In this document: positions 2,399 through 60,905 of the stretch, piece after piece | Position numbering within the stretch: the stretch's first letter is position 1 | Layout: every line of letters starts with the position of its first letter | Origin: Cephalotus follicularis | Lineage: Eukaryota > Streptophyta > Magnoliopsida > Oxalidales > Cephalotaceae | Direction of reading: 5' to 3' | Length of the DNA stretch: 64,000 nucleotides | Assembly (NCBI GenBank): GCA_001972305.1 | Contig: BDDD01000045.1 | Span: forward strand, 617,040 to 681,039 | Notes under the pieces: generated by a model | Told to the model about the DNA's origin: nothing | What the model saw: only the letters and a program-made list of their open reading frames with translations | Database searches by the model: none | Translations under genes and position numbers: made by a program

Positions 2399-2602
2399 GT
2401 CGACTGCCCATATGAACAGTCGACTGTCTAGTTTGAGTAGTCGACTACCTTGTGCAAACAATCGACTGTCTTGTGTTGAGTAGTCGGCTGGGCCCCTGAT
2501 TCAGTCGACTGCTTGCATGTCCAGGTTGAGTAGTCGACTGGCCCTGTTGTGTAGTCGACTGCCACCCTCTGTTTAGTCGACTGGATTCTTAAAACAGTCG
2601 GC
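2399..2602. repeat. Phased palindrome array, CAGTCGACTG type
   Basis: Ten copies of GTCGAC or a one-base variant are centred at about 2401, 2421, 2442, 2463, 2485, 2506, 2535, 2556, 2578 and 2599. Spacings are 20, 21, 21, 22, 21, 29, 21, 22 and 21 bp. Most copies extend to AGTCGACT or CAGTCGACTG. The ~11-bp spacers between palindromes are unrelated to one another, so this is not a simple minisatellite. It lies downstream of the CT-rich leader of LTR E. Confidence 0.9.
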
Positions 2603-4014
2603 TGGTTTGTCCTGTAAACTTCTGTTTTCATCCGTTTGTTCTTCCGATGATCCGGGTCTATTCTAAACATCATTATGATTCCGTTTTATGTTCAAAATGA
2701 ATTTTAGACCCTTATTTGAACATTGTTATGTTGTTTAGATTATTGTGCTACGTGATGCAAATTAAATTCACCGGATATTCGTAAGTTAGTTTGTGATCGC
2801 ATAAGGTACGGATTTTCGTTTCTTGCTACACTCTTACTTATTCGATTCTGTTTTGAGAATAAATACAGATTCTTTGTTTTGGGTTATTATTCGGTTTTAC
2901 GAATATGTTCCCTTTTGGTTTATGAACTCCGTTATATTTGGATTTTGAAAATAAAGCCACTTGATATTTTATGAGGTAAATATTTCTGACTTTATGAATT
3001 CAGTTATGATGTGTTTACGAAATGTTATGCAATCATCTCTTTATTGTGAAATTAAATGAGTTGATTTTTCCGATTATGAAAGCATGTGTTTATATCATTT
3101 GAGAACGATTTATGTTTATGTTTGGGAAACCTTCCTATGAATTTTAAAATGATTTGATGAAATCATAGTTTTTGAAATGGTGAAATATTGAGCTTTTATA
3201 ACCACCTATGGGGGTACCATAGGCATGCTGTGAGCCTGGCATGGGGGCATGACACTTTCCGTAACGGTGTGATTTGTTTACGGCATCTCTCTGGGATATC
3301 CTTTGATAGGATTTGGGATAGAGGCGTATGGATCGATCCTAGTTATATGTTTTTGGGATAAGTTTTGGGATATGAGAATTGTATGTGTAGTGCTGTACAC
3401 TGCAATTCCATTTGGCAATGTGGGTGTCGCGAACCCCTTGCTATTATGTGATTGTGATATGTTATGGGTTTTGGTGCTCAGTTATGGATCCTATGTTTTG
3501 GAAAGGTATACTTTATGGTTTCAAGTTATGAACTTGTTTTATATGTTTTGCCGAGGGCATTTACAAAGTATGTTTTACATTATTTTATTGCTTAAGATTT
3601 CTGCTCCTAAGGTACGTTTGAAATCTTCTTGCTTTAAAATATCGTTTACTGTTTTATATTCTATATCCGTACTGAGGTTTGCTCAGCCGCGTTTTTGTTT
3701 CCATGCGGCAGGTTATCAGGAGCAAAGGGGCAATGTGTGATGAGAATGACTCCCATATGTATGAGGATCATCTAGGAGCTGATCCCTCTGTGTTTATGTG
3801 GTTGTAGTGGGACCCGTTTAATAAACATATGTTATTTCAGTTATGACTTTTGGGATTATGAAAAAGTTTCAGTTATGATCAATTTTAGTATGTTATTGGT
3901 TATGCTTTAAACCATCACGTATTTTAATAAAGATGAACGTTTTTAATATGATATGTTATGTTTAGTTTCTGTTATATGCACCTGTGGCGACTCCCACAGA
4001 TCGGGGGTGTTACA

Positions 4015-14890: not shown

Positions 14891-16012
14891 TGTAGCAAGC
14901 AGAATCTGGTAGGTTTGTTTACTGCTTTATTGATATTGTATTTGTCTGCATTGTGAACTAATTGACTGAACAAGAGTATTTAAAACTCATTTATATGATT
15001 TACGTGCTTGTTAAATGGCTCTATTTGAGCATGGGGTAGTTTTACAGATTAATTGAGGGATTATTAACCTTATCATACTCTGAGATACACTGAAACATTA
15101 CCCTAACCCTAATTATTTCTCTCTCACCCGATTTTTCCCCAACGTTCTCTCAATCCTTACGCAAAAACTTCTCCTCAAACCCTCTATCTATTTTCGTTGC
15201 TTGCCAAGATGAAAGGGGAGGGATTTGTGAAGTTTTTTATACTGACTTCTTGCCATTAAAACTGATTGAAGCTGGTAGAATTCAGAGAAACTAGAGTTTT
15301 TTTTTCTTCTGATTTCTCTCAAAGATGAAGATCAAAATTGATCGGTAGAGTTTCTCTACCTTAAATGCACCATGGATACATGGTTATTGCTTTATATTAT
15401 GCATAAAGTGAATGATTGAACTAATTGACTTGATTGAATTGAATTGAAATGAGTTTTAGGTAAAAATTGGGTTTTTCTAAACTAATTAATGAATCTAGTA
15501 ATTTAGTGGCCTACTAGTTTAGAAGTGTTTAAAATGCGTTTTTAAACTTACCTAGACCTTTAAATGACCAAGTTTTTGAACTGGGGCCGAATTGAGTTAG
15601 ATTTAGGTCAAAACTGCTGGGTTTGTTTCCCAGCACGTTGACGCATTTTCTTAAAGACGTCCTCGTGTTCTTGATTAAGACAACGAGTCTCTCTTTTGTT
15701 TCCTTCCCAACATATCAACGTCTTCTCCCATAGACGTCAACGTGTTTCCTTAAAAGTCTCTGCCTCTACATCCCAGCTTCAACGTCAACGCTTTCCTTTG
15801 AGTGTCAACGTGATACTAAGGAAACGTCGATGTCTTTCACTTGAAATTTCGATGCTTCCATTTTGAGCCACTGTGAGAATATATCACCAACGAGTCGACT
15901 TCTTTCCCAAAAGAAGTTGACGTTTTGCGAGACTATGAAGGAGCATTGAAAAACATTGACTTCTTTTTTGATAGACGTCGACGCTTTTCCTACTGCTTCA
16001 TGTTGGAGTTAA
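14891..16012 (+). repeat. D 3' LTR, head part
   Basis: It starts TGTAGCAAGC after the polypurine tract and runs through an AT-rich U3 and a CT-rich leader (15110-15190) into a palindrome array (15635-15985). It stops at ~16012, inside that array. Confidence 0.85.
15635..15985. repeat. Phased palindrome array, GACGTCAACG type (element D)
   Basis: About 13 copies of a core near ACGTC|RACG are centred at ~15639, 15661, 15682, 15716, 15738, 15786, 15806, 15828, 15850, 15896, 15918, 15957 and 15979. Spacings are mainly 20-22 bp, with others at 34-48. Many cores read TCAA or TTGA, as expected if TCGA lost a CpG by deamination. Spacers are unrelated. Confidence 0.75.
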
Positions 16013-17375
16013 TTAAAAAAAAACGCGCCCCACTTGTGATTTTATTCTCAAAGAGCTTAATATTTAGAGAGTATCCTGTAGTTTGATCATTAGGACTAAA
16101 CACTATTTTTTTAATCCATAAAAAATAATTTAATATTTATAACATAAGATCATGAGGTAGGATAAATTACCACTTGGTTACACCACTGAATACCACTTAA
16201 TGAAGTGCATTAATTTTAACACCCTAGCTAATGCACTTCATTGGGTGGTATAAGATGGGGTGAAAAACTAAAAAAATTTCCTCCTGATGTTAATTTATCC
16301 TAACTCTAAGATCATATCCAAACATATAACTCCATATTAAACATGGGATTTCTTATTTGTAAAAAAAATGTCATTCTTAAGGCTTGAGCTCAAGACCCTA
16401 GAGACTTTCAATATGAGCGGTCAAACAGGCTAACACAACTTTTGGTAACAATCCCCAATAAAATTTCATGTAATAATAATATTTTACAATCTTAAATATT
16501 ATACGGTTTTGTGTTTGAAAAAAGAGAGAGGCAATCTTGTGGTTTGACCCACAGTCTTCAACGAGAATGCGTACCAAATGAACCAAACCACATTTGGTAA
16601 TAGTCTTCACCGTAATTTTATATAATAGTATCTCAAGAATCGTCATAGGAAATAATCTTAGCATAGATTTTTCAAAATAGGAAATCTTGAGGCTTGGACT
16701 CAACACCTCATAATCTTTAATGAGAATACTTACCAAATGAATCACACCAAATTTTGCTAATAGACAATGTTAAGGCTTGAACTGAAGACCACATAGTCTT
16801 CAATAAGAACACTTACCAAATGAACCACACCAAATTTTTCTAATTAGTTTTATATAATAGTATCTCAAGAATCGTTATAGGTAATAATCTTAGCAGAGAA
16901 GATATATCATGAACTTCTGTATTTTACAAAGTTTTCGTTGCTTATTGTGTTTGTAAAATTTCGGTTACAACAAAAAGCAGTCTTGTCTTCTGATTATTAT
17001 TCAATGTAATATAAAAAAAGAATTTTGAAATATTAGATCGTATCCGTCATATATAGTTTATGCATAAAACGATCAATTATGTTTTTACGACTATTATAAC
17101 ATAAGTTCTTTGCTGGGAATTTTTTTTTGCAATCTTTAATGACTCAACATCTCCATCTCTGATCCTTACTGCCACGCACGCGTAATTATACAGTTTGTTC
17201 ACATTCTTAATTCACGTCTATTGGTGCAAGCATTGGTTCTCTCAATGTCTCCATAAACTCGACATTGACTATTCATTGTCTAGTTGTGGTTCATCTGGGG
17301 AGCCTGCTACCATGTGTACGTTCGGACGTGTGAGTGGTATTTTGATTGTATGTCTTTTCTGGCTCCATGTTGATG
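16013..17375. other. AT-rich intergenic stretch with diverged ~250-bp repeats
   Basis: There is no gene. 16381-16880 holds four diverged copies of a motif near GCTTGAACTCAAGACC plus AGTCTTCAAYGAGAAT and ACCAAATGAACCACACC. Two longer copies (~16535-16670 and ~16785-16900) share ATATAATAGTATCTCAAGAA. The one open frame on the minus strand (16398-16745) follows the repeats and is not a credible gene. Family unknown. Confidence 0.65.
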
Positions 17376-17549
17376 AATTGTGTGACGACCTGAATTCTCT
17401 TTGGTACTGTTCATGTATACATCGTACCGTATTGGACCGTACTGAACTGCATTGAATTGAGGTATTCTTATACCTATTGATATTGTATTGATCATATGCA
17501 TGTATAGTCGGGATTTTGGGCTGAGTTTCGAAGAATTGACCGAATCGAC

Positions 17550-17557
17550 TATATAAG
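17550..17557 (+). promoter_or_regulatory. A LTR TATA box
   Basis: TATATAAG lies 170 bp into the LTR, followed after ~25-30 bp by a CT-rich stretch where transcription probably starts. It is repeated in the 3' LTR at ~23275-23282 and in fragment K (minus strand). Confidence 0.7.
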
Positions 17558-18050
17558 TTAATTCCTTTGTCATTTCTCTCATTCTCACCATTCATCCTTC
17601 TCTCTCTATCCTTCTCCCTCTCTCTCTAGCTGGGCAGCCTCCATCTTCCACCATTGCAGCCCCGGATTGCATCTCCATCGACAAGAACAACGATTGCAAG
17701 GAGTGGATTGACACTTGAACGACACAGCAACCGATTGAGTGTTTGCAAGCTCAACTTTTGAGCTTCAGTGATAGGTAGGACTTCTTTACTGAATTGTCTA
17801 CTGTTTTATTGATTGATTGATTGAATTGCATGATTGAATTGAGTGATTGAATTGAGGTTTTTAGGGTTTATAGCAAACCCTTGACCTAATTGTTAAATTG
17901 AATGATTGAAATCGAATTTGGAAGGTTGTAACTAGTCTTACTAACCTCCAATGAGTGATTGTAAACTTTGGTTTTCAAAGAATGTCTTTTAATTGGATTT
18001 TGGCTTGAGATTGGCCCCATTTTCTACCAGAAAAAACGACCCTGCCCGGA

Positions 18051-18364
18051 AAGACGTCGACCCTTAGCCCAAAGGCGTCGATGTCTTGTTCATACGAGTG
18101 CTTTATCCTTGATTCTGCAGCAAAGACATCGACGTCTTTGCCTCGAGATGTCTCTCCCTTGGAAAGACATCGATGCTGAACATCGATGCGCATTCTCAGG
18201 CTATTTTTATTGAAAAGCGTCGACGCCTTTCTCCAAGGACGTCGATGTCTTTGGCCAGTTCTCTGCATAAACAGGGAAGGACATCGACGTCTTTCTAAAG
18301 GCATCGACGTCTTTCCTCCGTTTTAAAGAGGAGTCGATGTCTTTCACCAAAGACATCGACGCCT
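18051..18364. repeat. Phased palindrome array, AAGACATCGATGTCTT type (element A)
   Basis: About eleven copies of an up to 18-bp palindrome, best AAAGACATCGACGTCTTT, are centred at ~18058, 18079, 18130, 18171, 18184, 18221, 18243, 18285, 18305, 18335 and 18357. Spacings cluster at 20-22 and 41-42 bp. Spacers are unrelated. The array is in the 5' LTR only. It lies 500-800 bp downstream of the TATA box, so it should be in the transcribed leader. Confidence 0.88.
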
Positions 18365-18859
18365 AATGTACTGAAAGGAGTTTTTAACTGTTTTAAAGCT
18401 AGTTTTCCACTTCTTTTCACATCGCCACTTGACCGGAGCCTCACTTGAGGCGTTCAAGTGTTTGAAAATAGTTTTAATGATTGCACTGACCGATTGATTG
18501 CTTGGGTCATGAGTGTTGCTGCGAGTCTAAGTCGGTAAAATGGATGCACGTTCCCATCCCTCCATTAGGCACCACCACTTATTGCGTTGCTTCGATGTTG
18601 TATTGATACATCGATTGATTGCTTGAGTCGTGAGTGTTGTTGCGAGCCTAAGTCGGTACGATGGACGCACGTTCCCATTTCTCCATTAGACACCACCACT
18701 TATTAACTTTACCCAATATTGTATTGACTCGATTGATTGATTGTATTGTATTGTATGGATCCTATAGAGCAACCTCATGATTCGTGTCGGCATGTTAGGT
18801 CGTTGACTCTGTCCACCTATTCTGCCAATCGTTTCATTTATTGTATTGTATTGACCCGC

Positions 18860-19393
18860 TGACGAGCGGTACCGATTGATTGTCGATTAATGCTCCCTTG
18901 AGGCCGTAGCTCACTAACGGTATCAGTAGCTCCCTCGGTTGTAGCTCATCGAGACCGTATTGACCCAGCCATAGGCTGGAAGATCTATGAGTTTCAGACC
19001 TGATCAATCTGAAAACCGTAGATAGATCTCCCACCCTTTTTGAAGGACTACCTTCCGTGGGATTGATCACCGCTAACCGATTGGCATTGTATTGACTCGG
19101 TCGCATGCTCTATAGGATATTGATTGATTGATTGGGTGTTTTATACACCACCACTGAGTGTCTGCCATTGATTGATTGTTATAGATCCTATCCGTATGCT
19201 CTGTTTGGGCCACCGTCATACGGATAGTATGATCACCAATTGTACATGTACATTTGCCATGTCATGCATTGATATTGTACACTGCACATTGATATTGTAT
19301 AGATTGTCATCGATATTGCACATTGTACATGCATACATACTGCATAGGGTTTCTGCTTAGCCAGTGTGGCTAACCCCATCCTTCGGGGTGGGG
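18860..19393 (+). repeat. A structured U5: series of hairpins
   Basis: In order: GAGC/GCTC around 18865; CCAGCC-ATA-GGCTGG near 18965; a two-part hairpin AGATCTAT/ATAGATCT (18981, 19022) enclosing TTTCAG/CTGAAA (18992, 19009); an 11-bp perfect stem CTATCCGTATG/CATACGGATAG (19188, 19217). It ends with two abutting hairpins: TTAGCCA-GTG-TGGCTAA (19357-19373), then CCCCATCC-TTCG-GGGTGGGG (19374-19393). The final pair is unchanged in the 3' LTR at 24154-24190. Confidence 0.85.
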
Positions 19394-19756
19394 CTGTGTT
19401 GTACCTTTGTGTGCGGCATAGGTAGGGCAGCAGGTAGCAATGGACAGAAGGACTGAAGACCGTTGATCTCATGACTGCTTGGGTACCGTGGAGCTGGTTG
19501 TTAGACTTTGTAGTGGAAATTAGAATGTATTGTATTGAGATATTGTATTGAAAGATTGTTAATGTATTGAAAGACTTGTTTTGTAAGGGATTTGTATCGT
19601 ATGTATGGATCAGTGTATTGTATCTTCCGCAACTGATATATATTGTAAAGTTTTAAGTTTTTCCGCATTTTTATATTGCTAGTCCCGACCATTGTATTGT
19701 ATTTTGGTTTGAGCGTAATGCCACGTGTCCGCCCTGCGGGCGTGGGGTGTTACAGT

Positions 19757-19768: not shown

Positions 19769-19937
19769 ACATTGGTCGGCCTGCTAGCTAAGTATAGAAA
19801 TGCGTTGATTGAGATTGACTGAATGGATTTGCATGATATGTGTTCTTGCTTATTCATGCTATTGTTAATGAATAAGAGATTGATATTGGAATTGAAAGTG
19901 ATTACATCTGATCATCCCATTGTTGTCTCTTATAGTA

Positions 19938-21116
19938 ATGGAAAACAGAGGAAGGCGTGGCCGACGGGGTGGAAGGAATGCTCCTGCCCTTGCTCCTGCC
20001 CCTGCTCCTATTGATGATGAACCGGCTCCTGGTAATGCTTTTCCAGAGTATGACCCCAATGCTCCACCAGTGGGTGCTGACCCTGAAGTTTGGAGACAAT
20101 TGTGTGCCACTATGGCACAGATGCATACTCTGATGGGACGTCAACAGGATAGAGTGGAACGTAGACCAAGGAGAGAAGATATGTTGAGCCATTTCTTAAA
20201 GTTGCAGCCTCCAGCATTTGTAGGACTCCCCGATCCTACCCTTGATGAGTCTTGGCTAACCCATCTGGAAAAGATTTTTGAGGGCATGGGATGTGATGAT
20301 GAACAAAGATTGGTTTTGGCAGTGTATATGCTCCAAGGAGAAGCCGAGCATTGGTGGGCTATGGTTAATACAGATTGGACAAGAAATGGTATAGTCCGCT
20401 CTTGGGATGCCTTCAAAAGAGAATTCAATGCAAGGTACTACCCTCAAGTGGAGATAGACAGAAGGGAGATTGAATTTGCTAACTTGGTACAAGGAAGCAT
20501 GACAGTTGCTGAGTATGAGGCGAGGTTCACGCAGTTAGCCCGATCTGCCCCATACTTAGTGGAAGGCCAAGAGCGTAGAGCAAAGAAGTTCCTTCGGGGG
20601 CTGAGATTGGATTTGAGGAGGCAATTGACTCGCTTGGGGTTGACCTCCATATCAGATATTTCTTCCCGAGCTATGCAGCTTGAGGATATTGCAGCTGAGG
20701 CTAAACTGATGAGGAATGCAGCCCGCACCAGGCCTACTCCTTCTTCTTGGCAGAGTGGTATTGACAGTGGCAGTGCTAAATCACAGAAGACTGATAGTAG
20801 CCCCTCACCTGGTTCTCAGGGTAGCAATCAGGATAGCGGGAATCTGTCCCGTTCCCAGAGGAGAGGCAGATCGAGGAACGCACGTCGAGGAGGCCGATCT
20901 TCAGCACCTAGTCAGGGTACACCCTCCAGACTTTCTGAGAGTGGTAATCAGAGTGCTACGGTTCCTTATGTGCATTGTCAGAAGACCAACCATACTTTTA
21001 AGAATTGTAGATGGTTCTTGGGCCATTGCTTGGTTTGTGGTGGTCCCGACCACATTGCTAGAGATTGTCCTCGGAGTTCTCGTCCTAGAGGATTTGATCA
21101 GACACAGCGGGCATAG
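19938..21116 (+). pseudogene. gag: A gag
   Basis: Structural protein of a Ty3/gypsy particle, about 392 residues from MENRGRRGRRGG at 19938. This start is chosen over the frame's first ATG at 19920 because the basic N-terminus matches B and C gag (MDGRRRSGR, MDGRGRSGR). In order: a basic, proline-rich N-terminus; the retrotransposon gag core (LQPPAFVGLPDP, MLQGEAEHWWAMV, ~75-170); FANLVQGSMTVAEYEARF; a serine-rich basic linker (~265-340); and the CCHC knuckle CLVCGGPDHIARDC near 365. The frame is open throughout. As part of a broken element it is a fossil. Confidence 0.9.
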
Positions 21117-21209
21117 CCTCCACCAGGACCGACAGCTAGTGTACCGTCTTCTTCCCGTGGGACTTCGCAGACCAGGGGGAAGCAGCCTATGAGTTCTGCT
21201 CCGACAGTT

Positions 21210-23050: not shown

Positions 23051-23088
23051 GATTGATCGTTTGACCGATGAATCTGGGGACCAGATTC

Positions 23089-23105
23089 CTTTAAGGAGGG
23101 GAGAA
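23089..23105 (+). promoter_or_regulatory. A polypurine tract
   Basis: CTTTAAGGAGGGGAGAA lies immediately before the 3' LTR. It is the plus-strand primer for reverse transcription in this family. Confidence 0.9.
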
Positions 23106-24400
23106 TGTGACGACCCGAATTCCCTTTGGTACTGTTCATGCATACATCGTACCGTATTGGACCGTACTGAACTGCATTGAAGTGAGGTATTCTTATACCT
23201 ATTGATATTGTATTGATCATATGCATGTATAGTCGGGATTTTGGACCGAGTTTCGGAGAATTGACCGAATCGACTATATAAGTTAATTCCTTTGTCATTT
23301 CTCTCATTCTCACCATTCATCCTTCTCTCTCTATCCTTCCCCCTCTCTCTCTAGCTGGGTAGCCTCCATCTTCCACCATTGCAGCCCCGGATTGCATCTC
23401 CATCGACAAGAACAACGATTGCAAGGAGTGGATTGACGCTTGAACGACACAGCAACCGATTGAGTGTTTGGAAGCTCAACTTTTGAAGCTTCAGTGATAG
23501 GTAGGACTTCTTTACTGAATTGTCTACTGTTTTATTGATTGATTGATTGAATTGCATGATTGAATTGAGTGATTGAATTGATGTCGGCATGTTAGGTCGT
23601 TGACTCTGTCCACCTATTCTGCCGATCGTTTCATTTATTGTATAGTATTGACCCACTGACGAGCGGTACCGATTGATTGTCGATTGATGCTCCCTTGAGG
23701 CCGTAGATCCCTAACGGTATCAGTAGCTCCCTCGGTTGTAGCTCATCGAGACCGTATTGACCCAGCCACAGGCTGGAAGATCTATGAGTTCCAGACCTGA
23801 TCAATCTGGAAATCGTAGATAGATCTCCCACCCTTTTTGAAGGACTACCTTCCGAGGGATTGATCACCGCTAACCGATTGGCATTGTATTGACTCGGTCG
23901 CATGCTCTATAGGATATTGATTTATTGATTGGGTGTTTCATACACCACCACTGAGTGTCTGCCATTGATTGATTGTTATAGATCCTATCCGTATGCTCTG
24001 TTTGGGCCACTGTCATACGAATAGTATGATCGCCAATTGTACATGTACATTTGTCATGTCATGCATTGATATTGTACACTGCACATTGATATTGTATAGA
24101 TTGTCACTGATATTACACATTGTACATGCATACATACTGCATGGGGTTTCTGCTTAGCCAGTGTGGCTAACCCCATCCTTCGGGGTGGGGCTGTGTTGTA
24201 CCTTTGTGTGCGGCATAGGTAGGGCAGCAGGTAGCAGTGGACAGAAGGACTGAAGACCGTTGATCGCATGACTGCTTGGGTACCGTGGAGCTGGTTGTGA
24301 GACTTTGTAGTGGAAATTGGAATGTATTGTATTGAGATATTGTATTGAAATATTGTTAATGTAATGCCACGTGTCCGCCCTGCGGACGCGGGGTGTTACA
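23106..24400 (+). repeat. A 3' LTR (short form)
   Basis: 1,295 bp with the same first and last bases as the 5' LTR but without the palindrome array. It keeps the U5 hairpins. The TTTCAG/CTGAAA pair of the 5' LTR reads TTCCAG/CTGGAA here (23789, 23806), and the TTCG hairpin is at 24171-24190. Confidence 0.92.
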
Positions 24401-48339: not shown

Positions 48340-49351
48340 AGAAATATGTTAGACAAAAAATTTTGCAAAAAAAAAAAGGTCATTCAAAATCTCGAGTAAG
48401 ATTTCTTTCATTGTTTTTATTTACGCTTTAAACGTCTTGCCAAATGATTAATCTATAAAATAATCGTACTTTTTGATTGAACATTAAAACCTAGGTAAAA
48501 ATACATTAATAAAATTCCCATATTGTAACGACCCAAAATTTATCTATTGTATTTTATTTTATGTTTGGTACTATATGTACCCTATTTGTATTTGTTTGGA
48601 TTGGAGTATTTATACTCATCCTAATTGTTATGGATATACATATCCACTGTTTTATCAGTCGGGTTCGTTACGTTTGAACTTCAGAGTGTAAGGCTACTTT
48701 TATTGTGGACCACATGGACTGAACCCACATAGACCACATATTGCTCTTTAAATTTAACCCACATACCCTTATCTCCCATGATCCTCCTATTTCTCTCGTA
48801 GCCTTGCATTATTAGCTCCTTATCTTCACTTTTCTCCACTTGTTATATAGTACACTAATATACAACACACACATCACTTTACTACATCAAAAAACAAAAA
48901 CAAAACACACTTTCCCTTTATCTCCTCTCACTCTCGTACCCGCCCAGCTACAAAGAAAGAAGTTTTGATCTTCTCCTTACATCAAGAACAACAAAAACAT
49001 TTCTTCAACATCATCCTTGAAGCTTAGCATCATTGGGGATCCTTGGCATGAGTTCAATCTCCATTTTTTGTTGTTATCAACAAACCAAAAGCTTCATGCA
49101 TTTTGGCAGAGTTTCTCTACCAAAAATGCTACTAATTATAATATTTCTACTTGGATAAATTGATTTGTGAACTGATTTGGTGATTAAAAGTGGTTTAGGT
49201 TATTTGTGATTAACGACCTAGAAATGGGATTAGGGTTAAATCAATGGATTCAAGTGGTTATAAACTATTTTAAAGACCCCAATATAACTATACAAACACT
49301 TAATACTAGAAGAAAACGATTTGATAAAAGACTGGATCGAAAATAGCTTTG

Positions 49352-49660
49352 AAAATCAACGTGGACAATACCATTGTCTGTCTAAGCGTTGATGCTTTAC
49401 CCAGAAGCATCGCCGCTTAGTACAATTTATACTTAAAAACCATACGAAACCTGACCAAGTGCTGACGCTTTGATATTAAGCGTCGCCGCTTAACCTACGT
49501 TCTTCTTGATGCTAAGAGTTGTTGACGGTTGCTAAGTGTGGCCACAAATCGCTGACCTCTAAGTGTCGTCGTTTTAGTCAAATTGTCGTCGCTTAGTACG
49601 TTTTCTACAGAACTGAATTAAGGCTTTAAGCGTCGCCGCTCATGACTGAAGCTCCTCCGC
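49352..49660. repeat. Phased palindrome array, TAAGCGTCGCCGCTTA type (element C)
   Basis: About 13 copies of a core near AAGCGTC|GCCGCTT are centred at ~49357, 49390, 49411, 49463, 49484, 49507, 49523, 49540, 49553, 49567, 49587, 49634 and 49654. Spacings of 20-23 bp recur, mixed with shorter and ~50-bp gaps. Best copies are at 49477-49492 and 49627-49640. It is more decayed than the arrays in A or E. Confidence 0.7.
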
Positions 49661-50233
49661 TTATGCCTTGTTTTTTACTATTTAACTATTTCAATACGTT
49701 TTCAAATATAACTACTTGATCGAATCGATCTTGAGATCACTCAAGCCTTTTAAAAACTGTTTTCTCTCTGCTAAGGCAAGTCATCTTTGATCTTTCTGCA
49801 GATCAATTGATTGTACAACACTATCAATTGACACGATTGGCTAACTGATTCATCAACGAAGTAGAATTTCTTGACTAACTGATTTGGGACTACAGTCCAC
49901 CCGTTGACTGACCTATTCATATTGCATGATTGTATAGTCACTTCGATTGACACTTGATTGATTTGACTGCAACTATAGGCGCTTAGCGATCTCTATTCGG
50001 GCTGGCCAAAAGATGGTTATATGTCCATTGTTTCCCATGTTAGACCTTCACCGCCTATTGGCTTTTACTATTGATTTGTATTAATTGATTGTTCCTATTA
50101 GAGCTACCTCATGACCTTAGTCAGATGTGAAAGGATCGTTATATACCATTTGTTCAACCTGATTGGACTGTCACCAGCCTTCAGGCGATATTATTATTAT
50201 TTAAATAGCCTACTGACAGAACTATTGCCCTCC

Positions 50234-50391
50234 GGTAGAACTTACCACTATGAATACGCTTAGATGACACTTATCGTCGCGTGCACGATGACACTTTCCA
50301 TCGAGGATGCACTTGGCAACACTTACCACCAAGTATGCACCCAAGTGGCACTTACCACTGAGTAGGTACTTAGTCGGCACTTAGCACTAAG
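50234..50391 (+). repeat. C hairpin array: conserved CACTTA loops, variable paired stems
   Basis: Units of ~30 bp share a CACTT(A) loop, but stems differ and still pair. GGTA/TACC is at 50234 and 50243. CGATG/CATCG is at 50286 and 50299. ACTTGG/CCAAGT is at 50311 and 50329. AGTGG/CCACT is at 50344 and 50355. CTTAGT/ACTAAG is at 50369 and 50386. A weak sixth unit lies near 50263. It occupies the same part of the LTR as D's array, but loop and stems are unrelated to D's. Confidence 0.8.
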
Positions 50392-51372
50392 AAGGCCCAG
50401 TGGAACTAATCTATCGATCTAAATCTACTAGGTCGGGTCTAGCCGTCCTCTCTACAAGACTACCTTCTGGGGGTTAGATTGTCACTTGATTTGACTTGAT
50501 TTGACTTGTACACATTTGAGGTCACACGCTCTATAGGAATTACTTGATTTGATTGGATTTGAGGTTAGTGTACTCGCACTCTACTATTGATTGTCTGTTA
50601 GATGATTGATAGGACTGATGATATTAGATCCCACTCTTATACACCGGGATGAAACAATTGTATACGACTAGTACATCAAAATAGTCATTCATACATTTTA
50701 CTTGCCATACATCATTACTGTACATTTGACATTTGACACTGTGCACTTGCACACTTACATGATAATGTATATTTGTACATAGCATAATCTGCGCAGGGGG
50801 ATGTATCTAGTTGGCCTTATGGTTGACCCATCTTTTGTGATGGAGACTGTCACACCCCATTCTCTGCAATAGGTAATATAAGACCCGGGGTTGTAGTAAT
50901 TAACATATATTTATATATATTAAGCTTATGCGAAATCGGGAAAATTAAAAACTTTCCAAATCAATTAATAAATTGCGGAAGCATTTAAACATAAGCCGAA
51001 TTAAAATACATAACATGTATCCCATACTACATATTAGTAATTGTCCTACCATAATACAAATATTCAATCGTTAATTGCCCTCAAACGGAGCATGATCAAA
51101 ACATTATCCATTCAATACATAACTCCACCGGTTACGATAAACATTAATCCATTGTTTACGATAACAATTTAACAATCTCCAAAAGGAAATACAATTCCAT
51201 CAATTAGAATTATTATAGCTTTATTCTTCTCCCACGCTTGCCCATATAGGTCTCACTGTATCAGTCAAAAATTGATAGGGTTAGCCGAATCCACTGGCTA
51301 AGTAGGAAAAATATAAATACATTTTGGGGTCAACAATATTAAATGCCATGTAATGAATGCATTATAATGGAA

Positions 51373-51420
51373 TACACACACACACACACACAAACATATA
51401 TATATATATATATATATATA

Positions 51421-51454
<34 letters not shown>
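51373..51454. repeat. Compound microsatellite (AC)n(AT)n(GT)n
   Basis: An AC run, an AT run and a GT run follow each other, making a near-perfect inverted repeat of ~80 bp. The other LTR of B has only a short AT run here (58818-58840). Confidence 0.95.
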
Positions 51455-51456
<2 letters not shown>

Positions 51457-52029
51457 CAACCATGCCAAGTGGCTACATCGACACAATCCAGCAATCATGT
51501 CCTCAAAGGACCAAACAATCCAATCAATCAGTACGAAGAGCGTCGCCATCTTCTGGCCCCGATGTCGTGCTCCTACTCCAGCCCCGTCTCCGGCTGGCTC
51601 GAAGCAGGTCAACAATCCATGTTACTAGCACGGAGGCTAAGTAACCAATATGGGTGTCCCTAGTCATCTCATGGCACCTAGAGCCCAAACCCGCCATTAG
51701 CCGTTAATGGCAACCTCCGCCACGCGACTAATACGGCAACAATCCCAATCACAATCCAACAATCAATCCAAAAAGCAATCCGTTTCAAGTAATTTATAAG
51801 TTATAAAATACTTGAATACTTACATTTGTTCAAAATGTAAATCCAATCCTTAAAACCATTTTCAATCCTTTGAAATATAATATTTCATGTAAAATAATTA
51901 TTTATTTAAAATCATGTATGGACTTTCCAAAATGATAAAACATTTTAGAAGTCAATAACAGTCCAATCAACAATTCAATCCATAACAATATGCAAGCAAA
52001 CATATGCTCAAAATGCAATAGGGTCTAAT

Positions 52030-52416
52030 CGCGTCAACGTGTACCATATAGGCGTTAACTTCCAAAATAGTAACTTTAAGCGTTGCCGTTTAACTTCTAG
52101 GCATCGACGCTTATGACCTTTAAGCGTCGGCGCTTAATCCTTAGGATCCGCGCTTATTAGAAGCTTTATGCGTTAACATGTTGTCACCTTGGCATCGACA
52201 CTTAGGGCAAAGACCCTTTAGTGTCAGCGCTTAACCTCTAGCGTCGACGCTTTAAGGTAGGAACCTTAGGCGTCGATGCTTCACGCGTCCATTTCTACGC
52301 TTAACGAATTATAGCGTTGACGCTTTCCTCTGAGCGTCGACGTTTAACTCAAAATCAATGTTTATTCACCACATAACAATCAAAGCGTCGACGCTTCCCT
52401 CATAAGTGTCGACGGT
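52030..52416. repeat. Phased palindrome array, AAGCGTCGACGCTT type (B 3' LTR)
   Basis: About 16 copies with core GCGTC|GACGC or decayed forms (GCGTTAACGC, GCATCGACGC) are centred at ~52035, 52056, 52084, 52105, 52128, 52148, 52174, 52196, 52225, 52245, 52274, 52318, 52338, 52356, 52389 and 52410. Spacings are mostly 20-23 or 28-29 bp. A smaller cluster lies at 53240-53400. Confidence 0.85.
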
Positions 52417-53553
52417 TCTGCAAACCAAAACATCATCTTCTTCATCTCAACACAATACCAGTGGAATTTAAACTAATCATACATGCAATTCAGTCCAATA
52501 TTTACTCAGAATACAACATGCATTGGCAGGTTAACAGCTTAGGGTAATCATAGCATCAATCACACAATCCAATCAATCCATAACAACCATGTGATTCACC
52601 AATGAACACTTATTACCAATGAACTCAAATTTGCATGTATATAATCCCTACCGTAGATTCCAAGTTAGGAATCGAAGTCCACCTCTTTAAGTCCACTGAC
52701 CAGTAGCTTTCGAGCTTCTCAGCAGCTCCAAATCCGGCCTAGCAGCTCTAACCAAGTTCAACTCCAAGTTCCAAGCTCCCAAGCTTTTATACTGATTCAA
52801 AAATGGAGAAATGTTCTCTCCCTTTCTTTCTTTTTCTTTTCCACTTCTTTCTTGTATTCTCTCTTTCCTTTCTGGTTTTTCCCTACTATTTTCTTTTCTT
52901 CACTTTTTACTTTCTCAACTGAAGGTTGAAGGAGATGAGAGCTATTTTATGCAGGTTACTTTCTCTCTCCCTTTCTTCAGCCCGTTTTGCATGGCACTAG
53001 GTTCCCTCCACTTTGTTTTCCATAAGCTGGATGTGCACAGGTGTCCATCTGCCCTCCACTTTCTTTTCCATTAGCTGCATGTGCATAGGTGTCCATCTCC
53101 TACTTTCATCTGGCCAGAATGGTGTACAGGTGTCCCATTCTTTCACCCCTTTGGTCGCATGACGCACAGGTGGCATTCTAATTCATTTCCCTTGAAGAAA
53201 ATGGTGGACACTTAGTGCATTTGTGCTGTCAGACAGCCTAGGTGTCGGCGTTTATATTGTGGGCGTCGACGCTTAACCCTGTGTACGCATTGGCTTCAAC
53301 GCTTATTTCTGGGCGTTAACGCTTTGAAAGTTTGTACCTTAAGCTCGTGTTTTGCTCTATAGGCATCGACCCTTGCTTCAAGGCGTCGGTGCTTAAGGTC
53401 ATTTCCACTATTTTCAAATCCATAAAACACTTCTAGCATTCTTTACTCAAAATTCAGTGTCACAAGTTGGAAAATTCCACCATTCTCATTAATTCAACAT
53501 TTAATTACAATGGAATTACAACAATACATTGGATAGATATTTGGGACATTACA

Positions 53554-53572
53554 ATCTCCCCTCTTTCAAAGA
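53554..53572 (-). promoter_or_regulatory. B polypurine tract
   Basis: The minus strand reads TCTTTGAAAGAGGGGAGAT immediately before the 3' LTR start. Confidence 0.88.
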
Positions 53573-53599
53573 AATTCGTCTTCGAATCTAAACACTTCT

Positions 53600-56500
53600 A
53601 GAACAAGCATTTCTAGAACAAGTGAGGGTAACGCTCCCGAATATCATCTTCTCGTTCCCACGTTGCTTCATCCGGATGATGGAATTGCTGCTGAACCTTC
53701 ACCATAGGAATGGTTCGGTTCCTCAATACTTGAGTCTTCCAATCCAGAATCCTCACTGGCAATTCCTCGCAGGAAAGATCATCTCGTACCGGGACCATAT
53801 CATAATCCAAGATGTATGATGGATCTCGGACGTAACCTCATAACATGGGAACATGAAAAACATCATGTATACCTGTCAACGCTGGAGGCAAGGCGAGTTG
53901 GTAAGCCACCTCCCCAAGTCTCTCGAGAATATGAAAAGGACCAATATAGCATGGAGCTAGCTTGTCCTTTTTCCCAAATCTCTGTACACCTTTCCACAGA
54001 GAGACTTTGAAAAAAACATGATCTCCGACATCAAACGTCAAAGGTCTCCTTTTCACACTGTCGACGTAACTCTTTTGTCGACTCTGAGCTGCAAGCAATC
54101 TCTCCTTAATCGCTTTGACCTTTTCTGGAGTTTCCTCCACCCGATCCGACCCAAGTATCGGTCACTCACCCACTTCATCCCAACAGATAGGCGATCTACA
54201 TTTCCGTCCATAAAGAGCCTCGTACGGAGCCATACCAATGCTTGAGTGATAACTGTTATTGTACGAAAACTCAATCAAGGGAATATGATCCTCCCATGTA
54301 CCGCTGAAATCAATAACACAAGCGCAGAGCATATCCTCCAAAGTCTGGATGGTACTCGCTGACTGTCCATCTGTCTGTGGATGAAACGTTGTGCTAAAAT
54401 TCAATTTTGTCCCAAAAGCTAACTGGAATCTCTTCTAGAAGTTGGAAGTGAAAATCGAATCTCGATCACACACAATACTAGCAGGAACACCATGCAGTCT
54501 CACAATCTCCTTAATATACAGCCGAGCCAACTTTCTCGCCAAATCAGTAACATGTGTAGGTAGAAAGTGAGCGGACTTTGTGAGTCTATCAACGATAACC
54601 ACACTACATTGTGACAATTCCAAGTCAACGGAAAACCTGAAACAAAATCCATGGTCACGTGTTCCCATTTCCATTTCGCTACCGATAACGACTGCAATAA
54701 TCCCGCTGGTCTCTGGTGTTCAGCCTTGACCATCTGGCAAGTCAAGCACTTAGCAACATACTCAGCAATCTCACACTTCATGCCGGACCACCAATAGTTC
54801 CTCTTCATATCCTTGTACATCTTCGTACTATCAGGATGAATGCTGTAATGAGATTTATGAGCCTCATAAAGTAGCTCATTATTCAATCCTTCATCATTCG
54901 GAAGACAAACCCGTCCTCGATATCTCAGTATGCCATCAGAATGCATGCAAAAGTCTGGTCTTGATCCCAAACTCTCTCGAATTTTCGGTAGTTCAAGATC
55001 ATAAATCTGAGCACTTTTAATCTCATCAAGCATTGATGGCTGTGCTCGAAGGTTAGCAATATATATCCCCGGGGATTGTACAAATGGAGTCCATTTCTGA
55101 AAATCTTCCAACGTCCTCCACTGAGACACCATCGTACTAGTTATCATCGCTTTACGACTCAACGCATCAGCAACAACATTTGCTTTCCCAGGATGATACT
55201 GGATGCTGCAATCATAGTCATTGAAAAATTCAATCCATCTACGCTGTCTCATATTCTGTTCATCTTGGCAGAACATGTACTTCAAACTCTTATGATCGGT
55301 AAATATCTCAAACTGTGCCCCATACAAATAGTGTCTCCATTTCTGAAGAGCAAAGACAATGGCAGCCAATTTGAGATCGTCTGTTGGGTAATTCTCTTCA
55401 TATGGTTTCAGCTTCCTCGAAGCATAAGCAATCACCCTACCACGTTGCATCAATACGCACCCCAATCCTTTACCCGAAGCATCGCTATACATAGCGAAGT
55501 CTTCACTACCATCGGGCAATGCCAAGATAGGAGCAGTAATCAACCGATCCTTCAATTCCCAAAAAACTAGTCTCACAATCCTCATCCCAGATAAACAAAG
55601 TCTTCTTCTGGGTCAATCGTGTCAATGGCACGACAATCTTTGAGAATTTATGGATGAATCTCTGATAGTAACCCATCAACCCAAGAAAACTGCATACTTC
55701 AGTCACATTCTTCAGTTCTGGCCAATCCCAGACAACCTCAGTCTTCGACGGATCCACCGCCGATCCTTCTCCCAAAACTATGTGACCAAGAAAGATCACA
55801 TGATCAAGCCAAAACTCGCACTTACTGAATTTGGAGTATAAGCATTGGTCTCTGAGAATCTGAAAAACTACTCTCAGATGGTGTGCATGCTCCTCCTCAC
55901 TCTTCGAAACCACAAACTAATCCAGATATGGCCGGAACACATCGTTCATCAAAGACATGAATGCTTCCGGTGCATTGGTAACACCAAACGGCATTACGAG
56001 GAACTCATAGTGACCATACCTTGTTCGAAAAGCTGTCTTTTTGATATCTCCTTCCCGTACTCTCAACTGGTGATAACCCGATCTCAAATCGAGTTTAGCG
56101 AATACTCTCGAACCTTGTAACTGATCGAACAATTCCTCAATGTGGGGAACAGGATACTTGTTCTTAACTGTTGACTTATTCAACATCCGATAGTCAATAC
56201 AAAGTCTCATCGACCCATCTTTCTTCTTCACAAATAACACGGGTGCACCGCATGGCGAAACACTGGGTTGGACGAAACCTTTGTCAATCAAGTCCTGCAA
56301 TTGTACCTTCAACTCCATCAATTCTGCAGGAGTCATTCTGTATGGTGCCTTAGAAATAGAAGTTGTACCAGGCACGAGATCAATGACAAATTCCATATTC
56401 CTCTTCGGCGGCAATGATACAAAATTTATAGGAAATACATCAGGAAATTCACTCACAACAGGAATCTCCTCAAGGCTCAATCCTTTCTCTTTTCTACAAT

Positions 56501-57060
56501 CATCACATAAGCCAAATATCATTCGCATCCCTTCTCAAGATACCTCGATGCACGAGTGAAGGATATAATCGGTGTCAAGAACCCTTTGTCTCCCTCAAAT
56601 TGGAATGTAGTACCATCGAACAGACAAAATTCACTATTTTGCTGTAACAGTCCATACAAGCATGATGAGCTGACAGCCAATCCATACCCAAGATGACATC
56701 GAAGTTTCGAATGGTTAATACAATAAGATCCGCATATAATGGAATCCCTGCCATAGAAATCTCACAACTCTTATACACAGAATCTGTACACATGGAATCT
56801 CCAGCAGGTGTACTCACATCGAGAACATATGACATACAATCATGTGTTATGTCCAAACATGATGCAAATCGTGAAGCAATAAATGAATGTGATGCTCCCG
56901 GATCCAACAGTACGCTAACATCAAAACCATAAACATAAAGTGTACCCCCAATAACAAAAGTAGATTTTAGAACCTCTGTTTGAGCAAGAGTAAAGACTCT
57001 ACCTTTCATGATGCTCTTCCCAGTATCCTTCCGCTGCGAAGGTCCAGCTGCAACACCGCT
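53600..57060 (-). pseudogene. pol: B pol (protease, RT, RNase H, integrase, tail)
   Basis: On the minus strand, in order: protease (56600-56960, [23 protein letters not shown]); RT (55600-56470, [49 protein letters not shown]); RNase H (55100-55585, [25 protein letters not shown]); integrase with an H2C2 finger (~54700-54860, [14 protein letters not shown]), core (54162-54674, [18 protein letters not shown]) and C-terminus (53838-54140, KKDKLAPCYIGPFHILER); and a chromodomain-like tail (53613-53810, ATWEREDDIRERYPHLF). It is nearly complete for a Tekay/Del pol but broken in several places. Confidence 0.9.
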
Positions 57061-57079
57061 ATCACTCGCAGGTCTAGTA

Positions 57080-58167
57080 GGCACTGTCACCTGACCTTTC
57101 GGACAATCCCTCGTTAAATGACCGGATGTTCCGCACCATACGCACAATCCATTCTTCACCCAACAATCCATCTATTGATGGCCTGCACGGCCGCAATGAA
57201 AACAAACTCCAGGTTTTGCATTACTCCCCTAACTAGGAGTACCCTGAGCGGCAGACTGCTATGATTTGTTCTTTGATGACTTAGTTGGAGAACCACTACC
57301 TTGCCACTTCGACGAAGCTGGCCTAGACTGTGTGGAGGTTTGTTTAGCTTGTTGGGCTCGGGCTCTCTCCACATGATCTTCATTCTGAATACTCTCCAAC
57401 AACCTCGCCTTTTGGGTGACCTGTACAAAAGTATCCAACTCCATAGCTCTAATCTTTGCCTAAAGATTCGGTCGTAGGCCTTTCAGATACCTCCGAATAT
57501 TTTTCTCCTCATCTGTCACCAGATAGGCTGAATGTCTAGCTAACTCCATGAACTTGGCCTGGTATTCGGCCACTGTCATCTAACCTCGACGCAACTCCAA
57601 GACCTCCGTCTCTCTTCGCTCACGCTCCACATGTGGCACATAAGCCTCCAAGAATTCTGCCCGAAACCTATCCCAAGTATTGTCAAGTCCCATAGACTCC
57701 CACTTCGCCTTGACCATCTCCCACCAATGAGTGGCCTCGCCCCATAAACGATAAACAACAAACTTCAACTTCTGATCATTAGTGCAACCCATCATATCAA
57801 AGATCTTCTCTAGATCTTGCAACCACCTTTCTGCAACAGTAGCATCAAGCTCTCCCTTGAAGATAGGAGGGTTTTGCCTCATGAATCTATCAAGGTTCCT
57901 CCCAAACTGGTTTGCATCGTGCCGCGCACCATGGCTGGGAGCCATGTGCAGTGGCTGAGCCTGTGCGTATAACCGACGCATCTCCTCCATATGAGCTGCA
58001 TTAGCAGCCATCTGCTGCTGGAAGTAGTTAGCTATCCAATCCATCGGATCTCTCCTTTCATTTGCTACCTCAGGAACATTTATATCAGCATCTTCCCCGT
58101 TATTTGCTTCATGGGGAATATTTGGATTGACCGTGCGAGCTCTTCCACTCCTCCTCCTTCCATCCAT
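57080..58167 (-). pseudogene. gag: B gag
   Basis: The start at 58167 gives MDGRRRSGRARTVNPNIP, ~100 bp after the primer site. The gag core (57580-58000) has RFMRQNPPIFKGELDAT and LWGEATHWWEMVKAKW. The CCHC knuckle CVWCGTSGHLTRDC is near 57103-57144. It is homologous to the gags of A, C and D. Broken in the second half. Confidence 0.88.
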
Positions 58168-58264
58168 TTCGTTTCCTATAAGGAAGATGTGATTAGTCAT
58201 CTCAAGGAAACAAGAGTTAATTGCCAAGGAACTTATCCAAGCTAAGCATATAATATTCATATAT

Positions 58265-58276
58265 GCTCTGATACCA
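58265..58276 (-). promoter_or_regulatory. B primer binding site (Met-tRNA)
   Basis: The minus strand reads TGGTATCAGAGC, an exact match to the usual site, four bases after the LTR end. Confidence 0.95.
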
Positions 58277-58280
58277 CTGC

Positions 58281-60905
58281 TGTCAAATCCCGTTCTCCAC
58301 AACATGTAATACAAGACCCGGAGGTCATGGCAATTAACATATATTTATATATATTCAGCTTATACGAAATCAGGAAAATTAAAAACTTTCCAAATCAATT
58401 AATATATTGCGGAAGCATTTAAACATAAGCCGAATTAAAATACATAACATGTATCACATACTACATATTACTAATTGTCCCACCATAATACAAATATTCC
58501 ATCGTTAATTGCCCTCAAACGGAGCATGATCAAAATATTATCCATTCAATCCATAACTCCACTAGTTACGATAAACATTAATCCATCGTTTACAATAACA
58601 ATTTAACAATCTCCAAAAGGAATACAATTCCATAAATTAGCATTATTACAGCTTTATTCTTCTCCCATGCTTGCCCATATCGGTTCCACTGCATCAGTCT
58701 GAAATTGATAGGGTTAGCCGAATCTACTGGCTAAGTGGAAAAAATATAAATACATTTTTGAGTCAACGATATTAAATGCCATGTAATGATTGCATTATGA
58801 TTCAATACATAATATATAACAATATATATATATATATATGTATATTTACTAATACGTGAGCAACCATGCCAAGTGGCTACATCGACACAATCCAGCAATC
58901 ATGTCCTCAAAGGACAAAACAATCCAATCAATCAACATGAAGAACGTCGCCATCTCCTGGCCCCGACGTTGTACTCCTACTCCTGCCCCGTCTCGGGCCG
59001 ACTCGAAGCAAGTCAACAATCCATGTTACTTGCATCGCGGCTAAGTAACCAATGTGGGTGTCCCTAGCCATCTCCTGGCACATAGAGCCCAAACTCGCCA
59101 TTAGTCGTCAATGGCAACCTTCGCCACACGACTAATACGACAACAACCCCAATCACAATCCAGCAATCAATCCAAAAAGCAATTCGTTTCAAGTAATTTA
59201 TAAGTTATAAAATACTTGAATACTTACATTTGTTCAAAATGTAAATCCAATCCTTAAAATCATTTTCAATCCTTTGAAATACAATATTTCATGTAAAATA
59301 ATGATTTATTTAAAATCATGTATGCACTTTCCAAGATGCTAAAACATTTTAGAAGTCAATAACAATCTAATCAACTATTCAATCTATAACAATAAGCAAG
59401 CAAACATATGCTCAAAATGCAACAGGGTCTAATCGCGTCAACGTGTACCATATAGGCGTTAACTTCCAAAACAATCACTTTAAGCGTCGCCGTTTAACTT
59501 CTAGGCATCGATGCTTATGTCCTTTAAGCGTCAGCGTTTAATCCTTAGGGTCAGCGCTTATCAGAAGCGTTATGCATTAACATGTTGTCACCTTGGCGTT
59601 GACGCTTAGGGTAGGGACCCTTTAGCGTCAGTGCTTAACCTGTAGCGTCGATGCTTTAAGGTAGGAACCTTAGGCGTCGACGCTTCACGTGTCCATTTCT
59701 ACGCTTAACGAATTATAGCGTCGACGCTTTCCTCTGAGTGTCGACGTTTATCATGGAATCAACGTTTATTCACCACATAACAATCAAAGCATTGACGCTT
59801 CCCTCATAAGCATTGACGGTTCTGCAAACCAGAACATCATCTTCTTCATCTCAACACAATACCAGTGGAATTCAAACCAATCATACATGCAATTCAGTCC
59901 AATATTTACTCAGAATATAACATGCATTGGCAGGCTAACAACTCAAGGTAATCATAGCATCAATCACACAATCCAATGAATCCACAACAACCATGTGATT
60001 CACCAATGAACACTTATTACCAATGAACTCAAATTTGCATGTATATAATCCCTACCTTAGATTCCAAGTTAGGAATCGAAGTCCACCTCTTTAAGTCCAC
60101 TGACCAGTAGCTTTTGAGCTTCTCAGCAGCTCCAAATCCGGCCTAGCAGCTCTAACCAGGTTCAACTCCAAGTTCCAAGCTCCCAAGCTTTTATACTGGT
60201 TCAAAAATGGAGAAATTTTCTCACCCTTTCTTTCCTTTTCTTTTCCACTTTTTGTATTCTCTCTTTCCTTTCTTGTTTTTCTCTATTGTTTTCTTTTCTT
60301 CACTTTTCCCTTTCTCAGCTGAAGGTTGAAGGAGATGAGAGGTATTTTATGCAGGTTACTTTCTATTTCCCTTTCTTCAGCCAGTTTTGCATGGCACCAG
60401 GTGCCCTCCACTTTCTTTTCCATCAGCTGCATGTGCATAGGTGTCCATCTCCCACTTTCATCCGGCCAGAATGGTGTACAGGTGTCCCATTCTTTCTCCC
60501 CTTTGGTCGCATGACGCACATGTGGCATTCTAATTCATTTCCCTTGAAGAAAATGGTGGACACTTAGTGCAGTTGTGCTGTCAGACAGCCTAAGTGTCGC
60601 CGGTTATATCGTGGGCGTCGACACTTAACCCTGTGTACGCATTGTAGTCGATGCTTATTTCTGGGCGTCAACACTTTGAACATTTGTACCTTAAGCGCAC
60701 GTTTTGCTCTATAGGCGTTGATGCTTACTTCAAGGTGTCGGCGCTTAAGGTCATTTCCACAATTTTTAAATCCATACAACACTTCTAACATTCTTTACTC
60801 AGAATTCAGTGTCACAAGTTGAAAAATTCCATCATTCTCATTAATTCAACATTTAATTACAACGGAATTAAAACAATACATTGGATAGATATTTGGGACA
60901 TTACA
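58281..60905 (-). repeat. B 5' LTR
   Basis: 2,625 bp. A TATAAAAG box on the minus strand lies at 60188-60195. Palindrome clusters lie at 60590-60750 (upstream of the box) and 59440-59825 (downstream). On the minus strand TTAGCC/GGCTAA pairs near 58713-58735, matching the A-type marker hairpin. A GCCATTA/TAATGGC-like hairpin is near 59097-59117. Confidence 0.92.
59440..59825. repeat. Phased palindrome array (B 5' LTR)
   Basis: The counterpart of 52030-52416, with cores GCGTCGACGC and variants at matching positions. The two LTR copies show different decayed sites, mostly CG to TG or CA. Confidence 0.85.

Follow-up and report, generated by a model that had tools for sequence, protein, structure and literature searches.

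What are the clusters of short palindromes in five long terminal repeats (LTRs) of Cephalotus follicularis, and what might read them? The five LTRs, called A to E, lie in a 64,000-nucleotide stretch of contig BDDD01000045.1 (positions 617,040 to 681,039; the window, in whose own numbering coordinates are given below), which is plant DNA crowded with nested LTR retrotransposons. A preliminary description had reported the clusters and proposed that they are recognized by a dimeric factor or pair with each other as RNA. From sequence comparison we give about even chances to the reading that the arrays are cis-regulatory and represent candidate sites of a dimeric DNA-binding factor with modular half-sites.

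Each LTR was subjected to an expectation-maximization (EM) motif search with a width of 16 and an order-2 background, uninformed about palindromes, and compared with five order-2 simulations per LTR. Seeds were taken from every position in the real LTRs and from every second position in the simulations. In each of the five LTRs the array word ranked first, with objectives of 85.5 (E), 53.2 (D), 91.9 (A), 65.0 (C) and 143.3 (B), above every simulation (29.0 to 41.1). Listed matches that lay outside the arrays or were not array copies amounted to 2 of 12 in E, 1 of 12 in D, 1 of 11 in A, 3 of 11 in C and 0 of 21 in B. Across 32 tiles of 2.3 kb covering the 64 kb, motifs with 20–22-bp steps were found over the arrays only, and the remaining tiles yielded tandem repeats or objectives of 33–64 without such a step. 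All five clusters thus exist where the preliminary description had placed them, and the three further elements that it reported to lack an array (F, G and H) indeed show none in the tiles between about 24 and 48 kb that hold them. An earlier search with Hamming seeds had recovered the array word in B and D, AT-rich words having swamped E, A and C, and was replaced by the order-2 EM search.

On the plus strand, array E (2394..2607) comprises 10 copies with the core AGTCGACT and gaps of 20, 21, 21, 22, 21, 29, 21, 22 and 21 bp. Array D (15632..15987) has 11 copies, and all five of its tight gaps are 22 bp. Array A (18051..18365) contains 10 copies of the AAGAC-RTCGAY-GTCTT type and array C (49383..49663) 9 copies of the AAGCGTCGCCGCTT type. 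Family B, located on the minus strand, carries two arrays in each LTR. In the 5′ LTR, one array lies downstream of the TATA box (59432..59822; 15 copies, 14 in the motif-search listing) and one in U3 (60551..60747; 7 copies) upstream of TATAAAA at LTR offset 710; the corresponding arrays of the 3′ LTR are found at 52028..52418 and 53199..53395. At lenient score, E, D, A, C and B thus hold 10, 11, 10, 9 and 22 copies per LTR. The copy list was drawn up at a threshold score of 8. Chance alone would yield 3–6.5 matches per whole LTR at this score, and the weakest listed copies may be due to it. The words of the preliminary description hold as a common core with family-specific arms and not as exact strings. 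Full-word matches number three in E, one each in A, B and C, and two in D, and the other copies deviate from them largely by CpG-type transitions.

The information in the arrays is confined to the word. Word positions carry 0.94–1.25 bits each, and the ten flanking positions on either side 0.11–0.30 bits. Copies within an array share the word and hardly the spacers, which are near random. As the word outlived the spacers, plain tandem duplication followed by drift does not explain the arrays. Retention of the word by the units of a single LTR, next to spacers that have become unrelated, is a good, but not conclusive, argument for past constraint.

Neighboring units favor a step of 21 bp. In the window, 32 of 56 adjacent gaps measured 18–23 bp (mean 21.03, standard deviation 0.98), the rest 26–55 bp, and none 24 or 25 bp; the array labeled B3, which repeats B5, was excluded from these pooled gap counts and from the spacer counts. 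A wider set of 30 clusters gave 76 of 149 gaps at 19–23 bp. E forms a near-continuous 21-bp row, and the copies of A, B, C and D mostly form 21-bp pairs.

Approximate LTR offsets place the array of family A at 670–985 (TATATAA at 169, CT-rich leader from 181), that of C at 859–1140 (TATATA at 320) and that of E at 1260–1474 (TATA-like motif at 289). Array D occupies 741–1097 of an LTR with no TATAWA match near its start. In B, the TATA box lies between the arrays at 158–355 and 1083–1474, and no CT-rich stretch was found. Hence, every family has an array downstream of its likely promoter, in D as judged from position, and B has one more upstream. The former statement that all arrays lie at or just downstream of promoter and CT-rich leader needs correction for B, with its upstream array and missing CT-rich stretch, and for D, with no TATAWA match. 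A word present on both sides of the TATA box of B is as expected of DNA sites.

Around the core, GTCGAC or RTCGAY, the two arms of a word match each other more often than chance allows. Right halves were dealt out among 26 array groups, which are not all independent and in which element A is represented by a relative in locus L172. Four of the 30 clusters (numbers 5, 13, 19 and 45), by eye other repeats without the core, were dropped from this and the tight-pair test and kept in the gap counts above; three of them lie in the genome sample described below. Arms matched at 89 of 130 outer positions compared with 60.0 ± 5.6 after permutation, and none of 10,000 permutations reached this value. 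At exact GTCGAC sites in the sample, the mean arm match was 2.03 of 4 (n = 139) versus 0.93–1.40 for four control cores. Outer arms that differ symmetrically between families around a common core, as described before, were supported, with the restriction that the symmetry is not universal.

Exact words were counted on both strands of the 1.58-Gb assembly with the reversed word as control, both strands being summed for non-palindromic words; counts of large repeats may be lower bounds. With half-sites defined as a (AAGC), b (AACA), c (AACC) and d (AACT) before GTC, the tally covered the classes aa, bb, ab, ac, ad, bd, cc and dd, and family copy number weighs on the counts. The symmetric words aa (AAGCGTCGACGCTT) and bb (AACAGTCGACTGTT) occurred 18,108 and 11,812 times genome-wide (15 and 25 times reversed). 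The heterotypic class ac (AACCGTC/GACGCTT) was found 16,582 times versus 30 reversed and its symmetric form cc 324 times versus 1, an excess of about 50 to 1. For ad (10,524 versus 15) over dd (67 versus 1) it was about 160 to 1. Classes ab and bd accounted for 4,102 (2 reversed) and 215 (2 reversed) sites. According to these counts, some arms are symmetric, and c and d as counted occur almost only opposite a. Half-sites combine non-randomly, arm symmetry is not obligatory, and heterotypic sites abound throughout the genome. A number of ac and ad sites stand 21 bp apart on one strand, for example at C1:618152 and 618173 and at C8:859405 and 859426. In 17 arrays with unequal halves, searched in both orientations, asymmetric copies were predominantly arranged head to tail (44 same, 8 opposite), although the reference, the majority of each array, somewhat favors "same".

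The genome sample consisted of 20 stretches of 10 kb, bases 400,001–410,000 of contigs 1–20 (200 kb, 9,271 bases masked), which were picked before inspection and are an arbitrary choice, not a random draw. Sixteen of the 20 stretches yielded arrays of four or more units. Thirty-five of the 38 arrays were of the GTCGAC kind and 3 were other repeats; including these 3, they comprised 215 sites over 6,465 bases. Chromovirus-type coding hits were obtained in 10 of the 16 array-bearing stretches, Tat-type hits only in 1 and no hits in 5. The association of arrays with chromoviruses is suggestive; it is not exclusive, because array stretches include hitless and Tat-only ones and because two of the four array-free stretches have chromovirus-type hits.

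We propose that the arrays are cis-regulatory parts of the LTRs of chromovirus-like Ty3/gypsy elements. The unit would be a site of 14–16 bp whose core, GTCGAC or a close variant, hardly varies and whose two arms are modular, and the 21-bp step between neighbors would correspond to two helical turns. Clustered in this way, the units most likely serve as binding sites for a sequence-specific dimeric DNA-binding protein, a homo- or heterodimer that is probably host-encoded and is predicted to control transcription or chromatin of the LTR. Arm sequences might change from one family to the next as each follows a dimer of its own or evades a repressor. The dimeric factor with family-specific specificity of the preliminary description is retained in so far as family arms are symmetric beyond chance; strict symmetry is not, heterotypic sites being common. 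A more specific version, which we advance only tentatively and consider rather doubtful, is a combinatorial half-site code in which a fixed GTCGAC core with interchangeable arms at 21-bp steps would be recognized by a single co-evolving family of regulators acting as homo- and heterodimers. As part of this code and sharing its tentative standing, AAGC and AACA would be used homotypically, and AACC and AACT almost only heterotypically with AAGC. Under such a code, different retrotransposon families would have private transcriptional or anti-silencing addresses in one genome. Should the wider proposal be correct, naturally occurring versions of this spaced, modular binding site number in the tens of thousands within a single plant genome, and it can be tested what recognizes the LTRs of retrotransposons and by what means related families share a regulator or avoid it.

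Several observations weigh against a regulatory site of this kind. Motif-based copy finding inflates the information of the word to some degree. Full symmetry over the four arm positions was seen in just 3 of the 139 exact GTCGAC sites, and with families pooled a deviation in one arm of a single copy was not matched by a compensating change in the other (p 0.72; p 0.022 for E alone). The long gaps showed no significant 10.5-bp helical period (p ~0.05, n = 24; p 0.75, n = 63); in the set of 63, a period of 12–13 bp gave p ~0.02, uncorrected. The arrays of A, C and E, and of D by position, lie several hundred bases past the likely promoter, an uncommon location for classic promoter sites. In a comparison of 10 A-family copies, the word was hardly better conserved than the spacers at non-CpG positions (divergence 6.1% versus 6.6%, inflated locally because L194 and L189 continue into non-homologous sequence beyond a breakpoint). 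In family B, the words of the two LTRs even differed slightly more than the spacers (7.6% versus 5.0%), CpG positions differing by 25.5–27.3% compared with 5.0–7.6% elsewhere. Purifying selection on the word was thus not seen among the A copies or between the B LTRs. Post-insertion decay may account for most of what the two comparisons show, and they have little bearing on selection in active lineages.

Instead of binding a protein as DNA, the arrays might act as RNA, the palindromes of the transcript pairing to form hairpins, to dimerize the genome or to provide double-stranded RNA feeding small interfering RNAs. Array RNA was more stable than dinucleotide shuffles in all eight stretches (z −2.0 to −9.5), and Sirevirus LTR palindromes are reported small-RNA hotspots (PMC5311732, PMC10760457). 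In family B, the two 29-bp gaps between palindromes each contain an inverted repeat by which a hairpin would be extended (59657–59701, AAGGT/ACCTT; 59608–59652, AGGGT/ACCCT), and both are foldable in the other LTR too; overall, 4 of 24 spacers were foldable at p<0.05. However, controls that kept the words and randomized their spacing folded nearly as well (z +1.5 to −2.4, with A at −2.0 and D at −2.4 lowest), so that any tuning of the spacing for RNA folding is at most weak. In 73 tight pairs, inner, outer and self complementarity amounted to 5.19, 5.22 and 5.21 of 8 (p 0.32 and 0.59 with permuted partners). Within-pair covariation was absent from the pooled data of the window (p 0.59–0.69) and the wider set (p 0.32–0.59), single families ranging from 0.12 to 1.0. 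Head-to-tail asymmetric copies, the abundance of classes ac and ad and the additional U3 array of family B also speak against RNA pairing. Respaced controls that fold almost as stably, lack of covariation, head-to-tail copies and heterotypic abundance together favor a DNA-binding reader. The RNA kissing or dimerization suggested previously was not supported, and we regard a function as RNA as unlikely.

Likewise unlikely is a purely mutational origin, in which slippage or template switching during reverse transcription multiplies a 20–21-bp unit and palindrome correction keeps the arms alike. It draws on the turnover seen among the 10 A-family copies, where single units of 19–20 bp were gained in L191 and lost in the window copy L183 and in L194, and where L186, L189 and L193 each lack 14 bp at one place; the head-to-tail orientation also fits tandem duplication. 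Slippage would, however, copy spacers together with words, and palindrome correction would erase the plentiful asymmetric classes and predicts a symmetry within copies that, as the uncompensated deviations show, is absent from the pooled families. In a further reading, family motifs would recruit a protein that strips methylation from cognate elements. Unit turnover and dense, non-coding, family-specific arrays of same-orientation copies are shared with the targets of VANC, the anti-silencing protein of VANDAL transposons (PMC5735166). Some Tekay elements carry a 5′ additional open reading frame with predicted nuclear localization (PMC11728184). On the other hand, A and B leave no room for such a frame between primer-binding site and gag (other places were not searched exhaustively). 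VANC motifs are not described as palindromic, a term that occurs 0 times in PMC5735166, and the high CpG divergence between the B LTRs is expected of methylated, not demethylated, copies. We judge VANC-like targets to be quite improbable. Least of all do we expect the sequence to matter mainly by packing CpGs into an LTR stretch that, if unmethylated, reads as a CpG island. The observed/expected CpG ratio is 1.82 in words, 0.77 in spacers and 0.60 in the rest of the sample, and clusters of the Sirevirus repeated motif (RM) define predicted CpG islands (PMC2829016), but CpG density needs neither 21-bp spacing nor a fixed core nor matched arms, and E-type words (CAGTCGACTG) hold a single CpG.

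The proposed dimer sites are carried by elements of differing completeness. LTR A is the 5′ LTR (17381..19754) of a plus-strand element whose coding region (19902..23105) contains, according to Pfam, gag, protease, the start of reverse transcriptase, a C-terminal SH3-like piece of integrase and a weak chromodomain. Its primer-binding site at ~19758 is separated from the gag frame by ~140 bases. The 3′ LTR (23106..24400) is without an array, the absent part corresponding to about 17858–18732. This missing part (17858–18732 versus 23584) includes the entire palindrome array, and ATTG-rich repeats are located at both edges. On the minus strand at 49–413, a second A-related LTR start of 79% identity runs off the left end of the window, so that any array it has lies outside.

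LTR C (plus strand, 48524..50847; known as an LTR only) is split by the minus-strand element B (50848..60905), which is flanked by the target duplication GAGAC (50843–50847 and 60906–60910). B has its primer-binding site at 58276 and the order gag, protease, reverse transcriptase, RNase H, integrase and weak chromodomain, with reverse transcriptase (56534–55920) preceding RNase H and the integrase zinc domain (55612–54503). The primer site is of the Met-tRNA type in both A and B, its last base being altered in A. Pfam Chromo scored 18.7 bits (E 0.0017) in A and 16.1 bits (E 0.01) in B, both under the 25.1-bit cut-off; we presume the end of integrase to be the typical sequence context of a chromodomain. 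With Ty3-type gag and domain order, and reverse transcriptase ahead of integrase in B, A and B look like Ty3/gypsy chromoviruses. The long LTRs would fit Tekay, the label given in the preliminary description.

LTR D (plus strand, 14891..16040), an incomplete 3′ LTR with an approximate right end, starts with TGTAGCAAGC after a purine-rich tract. It adjoins a decayed chromovirus-like pol (13932–14854, 71% similarity to 22108–23038), from which its class is judged. An LTR-like end at 11645–11652, followed by a decayed Met-tRNA-type primer site, may mark where the 5′ LTR of element D ends. LTR E (plus strand, 1134..4014) is likewise known as an LTR only; it is a solo LTR between 5-bp target duplications (TTTTG, 1129–1133 and 4015–4019), with a 137-bp TAT microsatellite near its promoter end (1294–1430).

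Other repeats of the window differ from the palindrome arrays. At 30004–30277, 3′ of a minus-strand Ty3-type pol, eleven 25-bp tandem copies contain CTCC-CTTA-GGAG, an interrupted inverted repeat. A 28-bp tandem repeat at 62987–63354 (13 copies) shows higher-order periods of 55 and 111 bp. A minus-strand fragment at 8169–8558 matches the Pfam plant mobile domain (PMD) with 60.7 bits. Outside the window, L171:5601–7600 contains ~15 copies near CTGAGGTCTGCCTTCG, many at 19–21-bp steps; they lack the GTCGAC core and may be a further type of array.

Scans of viral (IMG/VR) and prokaryote contigs gave no usable relative with the B-type word (42 stretches, one palindrome each), no relative with a reverse transcriptase piece (13 pattern stretches), and none usable as a plant relative with a three-GTCGAC pattern (at least 120 stretches); at least 150 of 162 loci on contigs from these scans had a GC content of at least 0.496. 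The viral-contig loci L123, L113 and L097 contain eight to ten GTCGAC words inside 400 bp. An RNase H/integrase piece searched in genome contigs matched 2 pattern stretches and no relative.

For comparison with known systems we drew on open-licence PMC literature, mostly titles and the starts of abstracts. This material held no recognized description of such arrays in Ty3/gypsy LTRs, which does not establish their absence from print; nor are they described in the parts considered of PMC6911290, PMC11963269, PMC12844716 and PMC11302176. The following likenesses and differences apply to the parts of the cited sources considered. GTCGAC is the PLACE element CRTDREHVCBF2, a low-temperature AP2/CBF element (PMC4553201). 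It accounts for the core only, not for arms, dyad and spacing, and is a lead, not evidence. The short interrupted repeat cassettes (SIRC) of Arabidopsis are likewise short repeats with diverse spacers, some palindromic, with altered copies partly inside Gypsy elements. Unlike the present arrays, they are a genome-wide, MITE-linked class (miniature inverted-repeat transposable elements) found by CRISPR-like repeat detection, and LTR position, core and 21-bp spacing are unstated there (PMC10342631). VANC targets, alike in the features given above, differ in that VANDAL transposons encode the binder and that their motifs, YAGTATTAY and AGTTGTMC, are not described as palindromic (PMC5735166).

A named precedent does exist, contrary to the earlier statement that no named feature fits: the palindromic RM of Sireviruses (Ty1/copia; Bousios et al. 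2010), with 8 to 32 copies per element, a CGG-CCG core (absent from the exception Tnd-1) and element-specific flanks. Within the LTR it precedes the TATA box, some boxes lie before an env gene, and the authors called it specific to Sireviruses within their Ty1/copia set (PMC2829016). In maize, clusters of Sirevirus LTR palindromes occupy the cis-regulatory region, and rapid evolution is reported (PMC5311732, PMC10760457); thanks to a 3-nt loop the maize motif CACCGGACNNNGTCCGGTG can fold singly, which the gapless words described here cannot. Both systems form high-copy, CpG-dense palindromic LTR clusters with a shared core and individual flanks, in at least eight copies per element (here 9–22 per LTR), and the Vitis RM (CGGTCGACCG) contains GTCGAC, as do the present arrays. 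In contrast, our arrays reside in Ty3/gypsy elements (A and B by gag and domain order), have the core RTCGAY or GTCGAC, and follow the TATA box in A, C, E and, judged from position, D, while flanking it in B; 21-bp pairing and heterotypic half-sites are unmentioned in the parts of PMC2829016 considered. Belonging to another superfamily, with another core and another position, the arrays are not members of the Sirevirus RM. Their anatomy resembles RM boxes, and they are a variant of known LTR architecture that is real and abundant. If our reading is right, dense palindrome arrays extend beyond Sireviruses to Ty3/gypsy elements and to another position in the LTR, which would point to convergence on one regulatory architecture.

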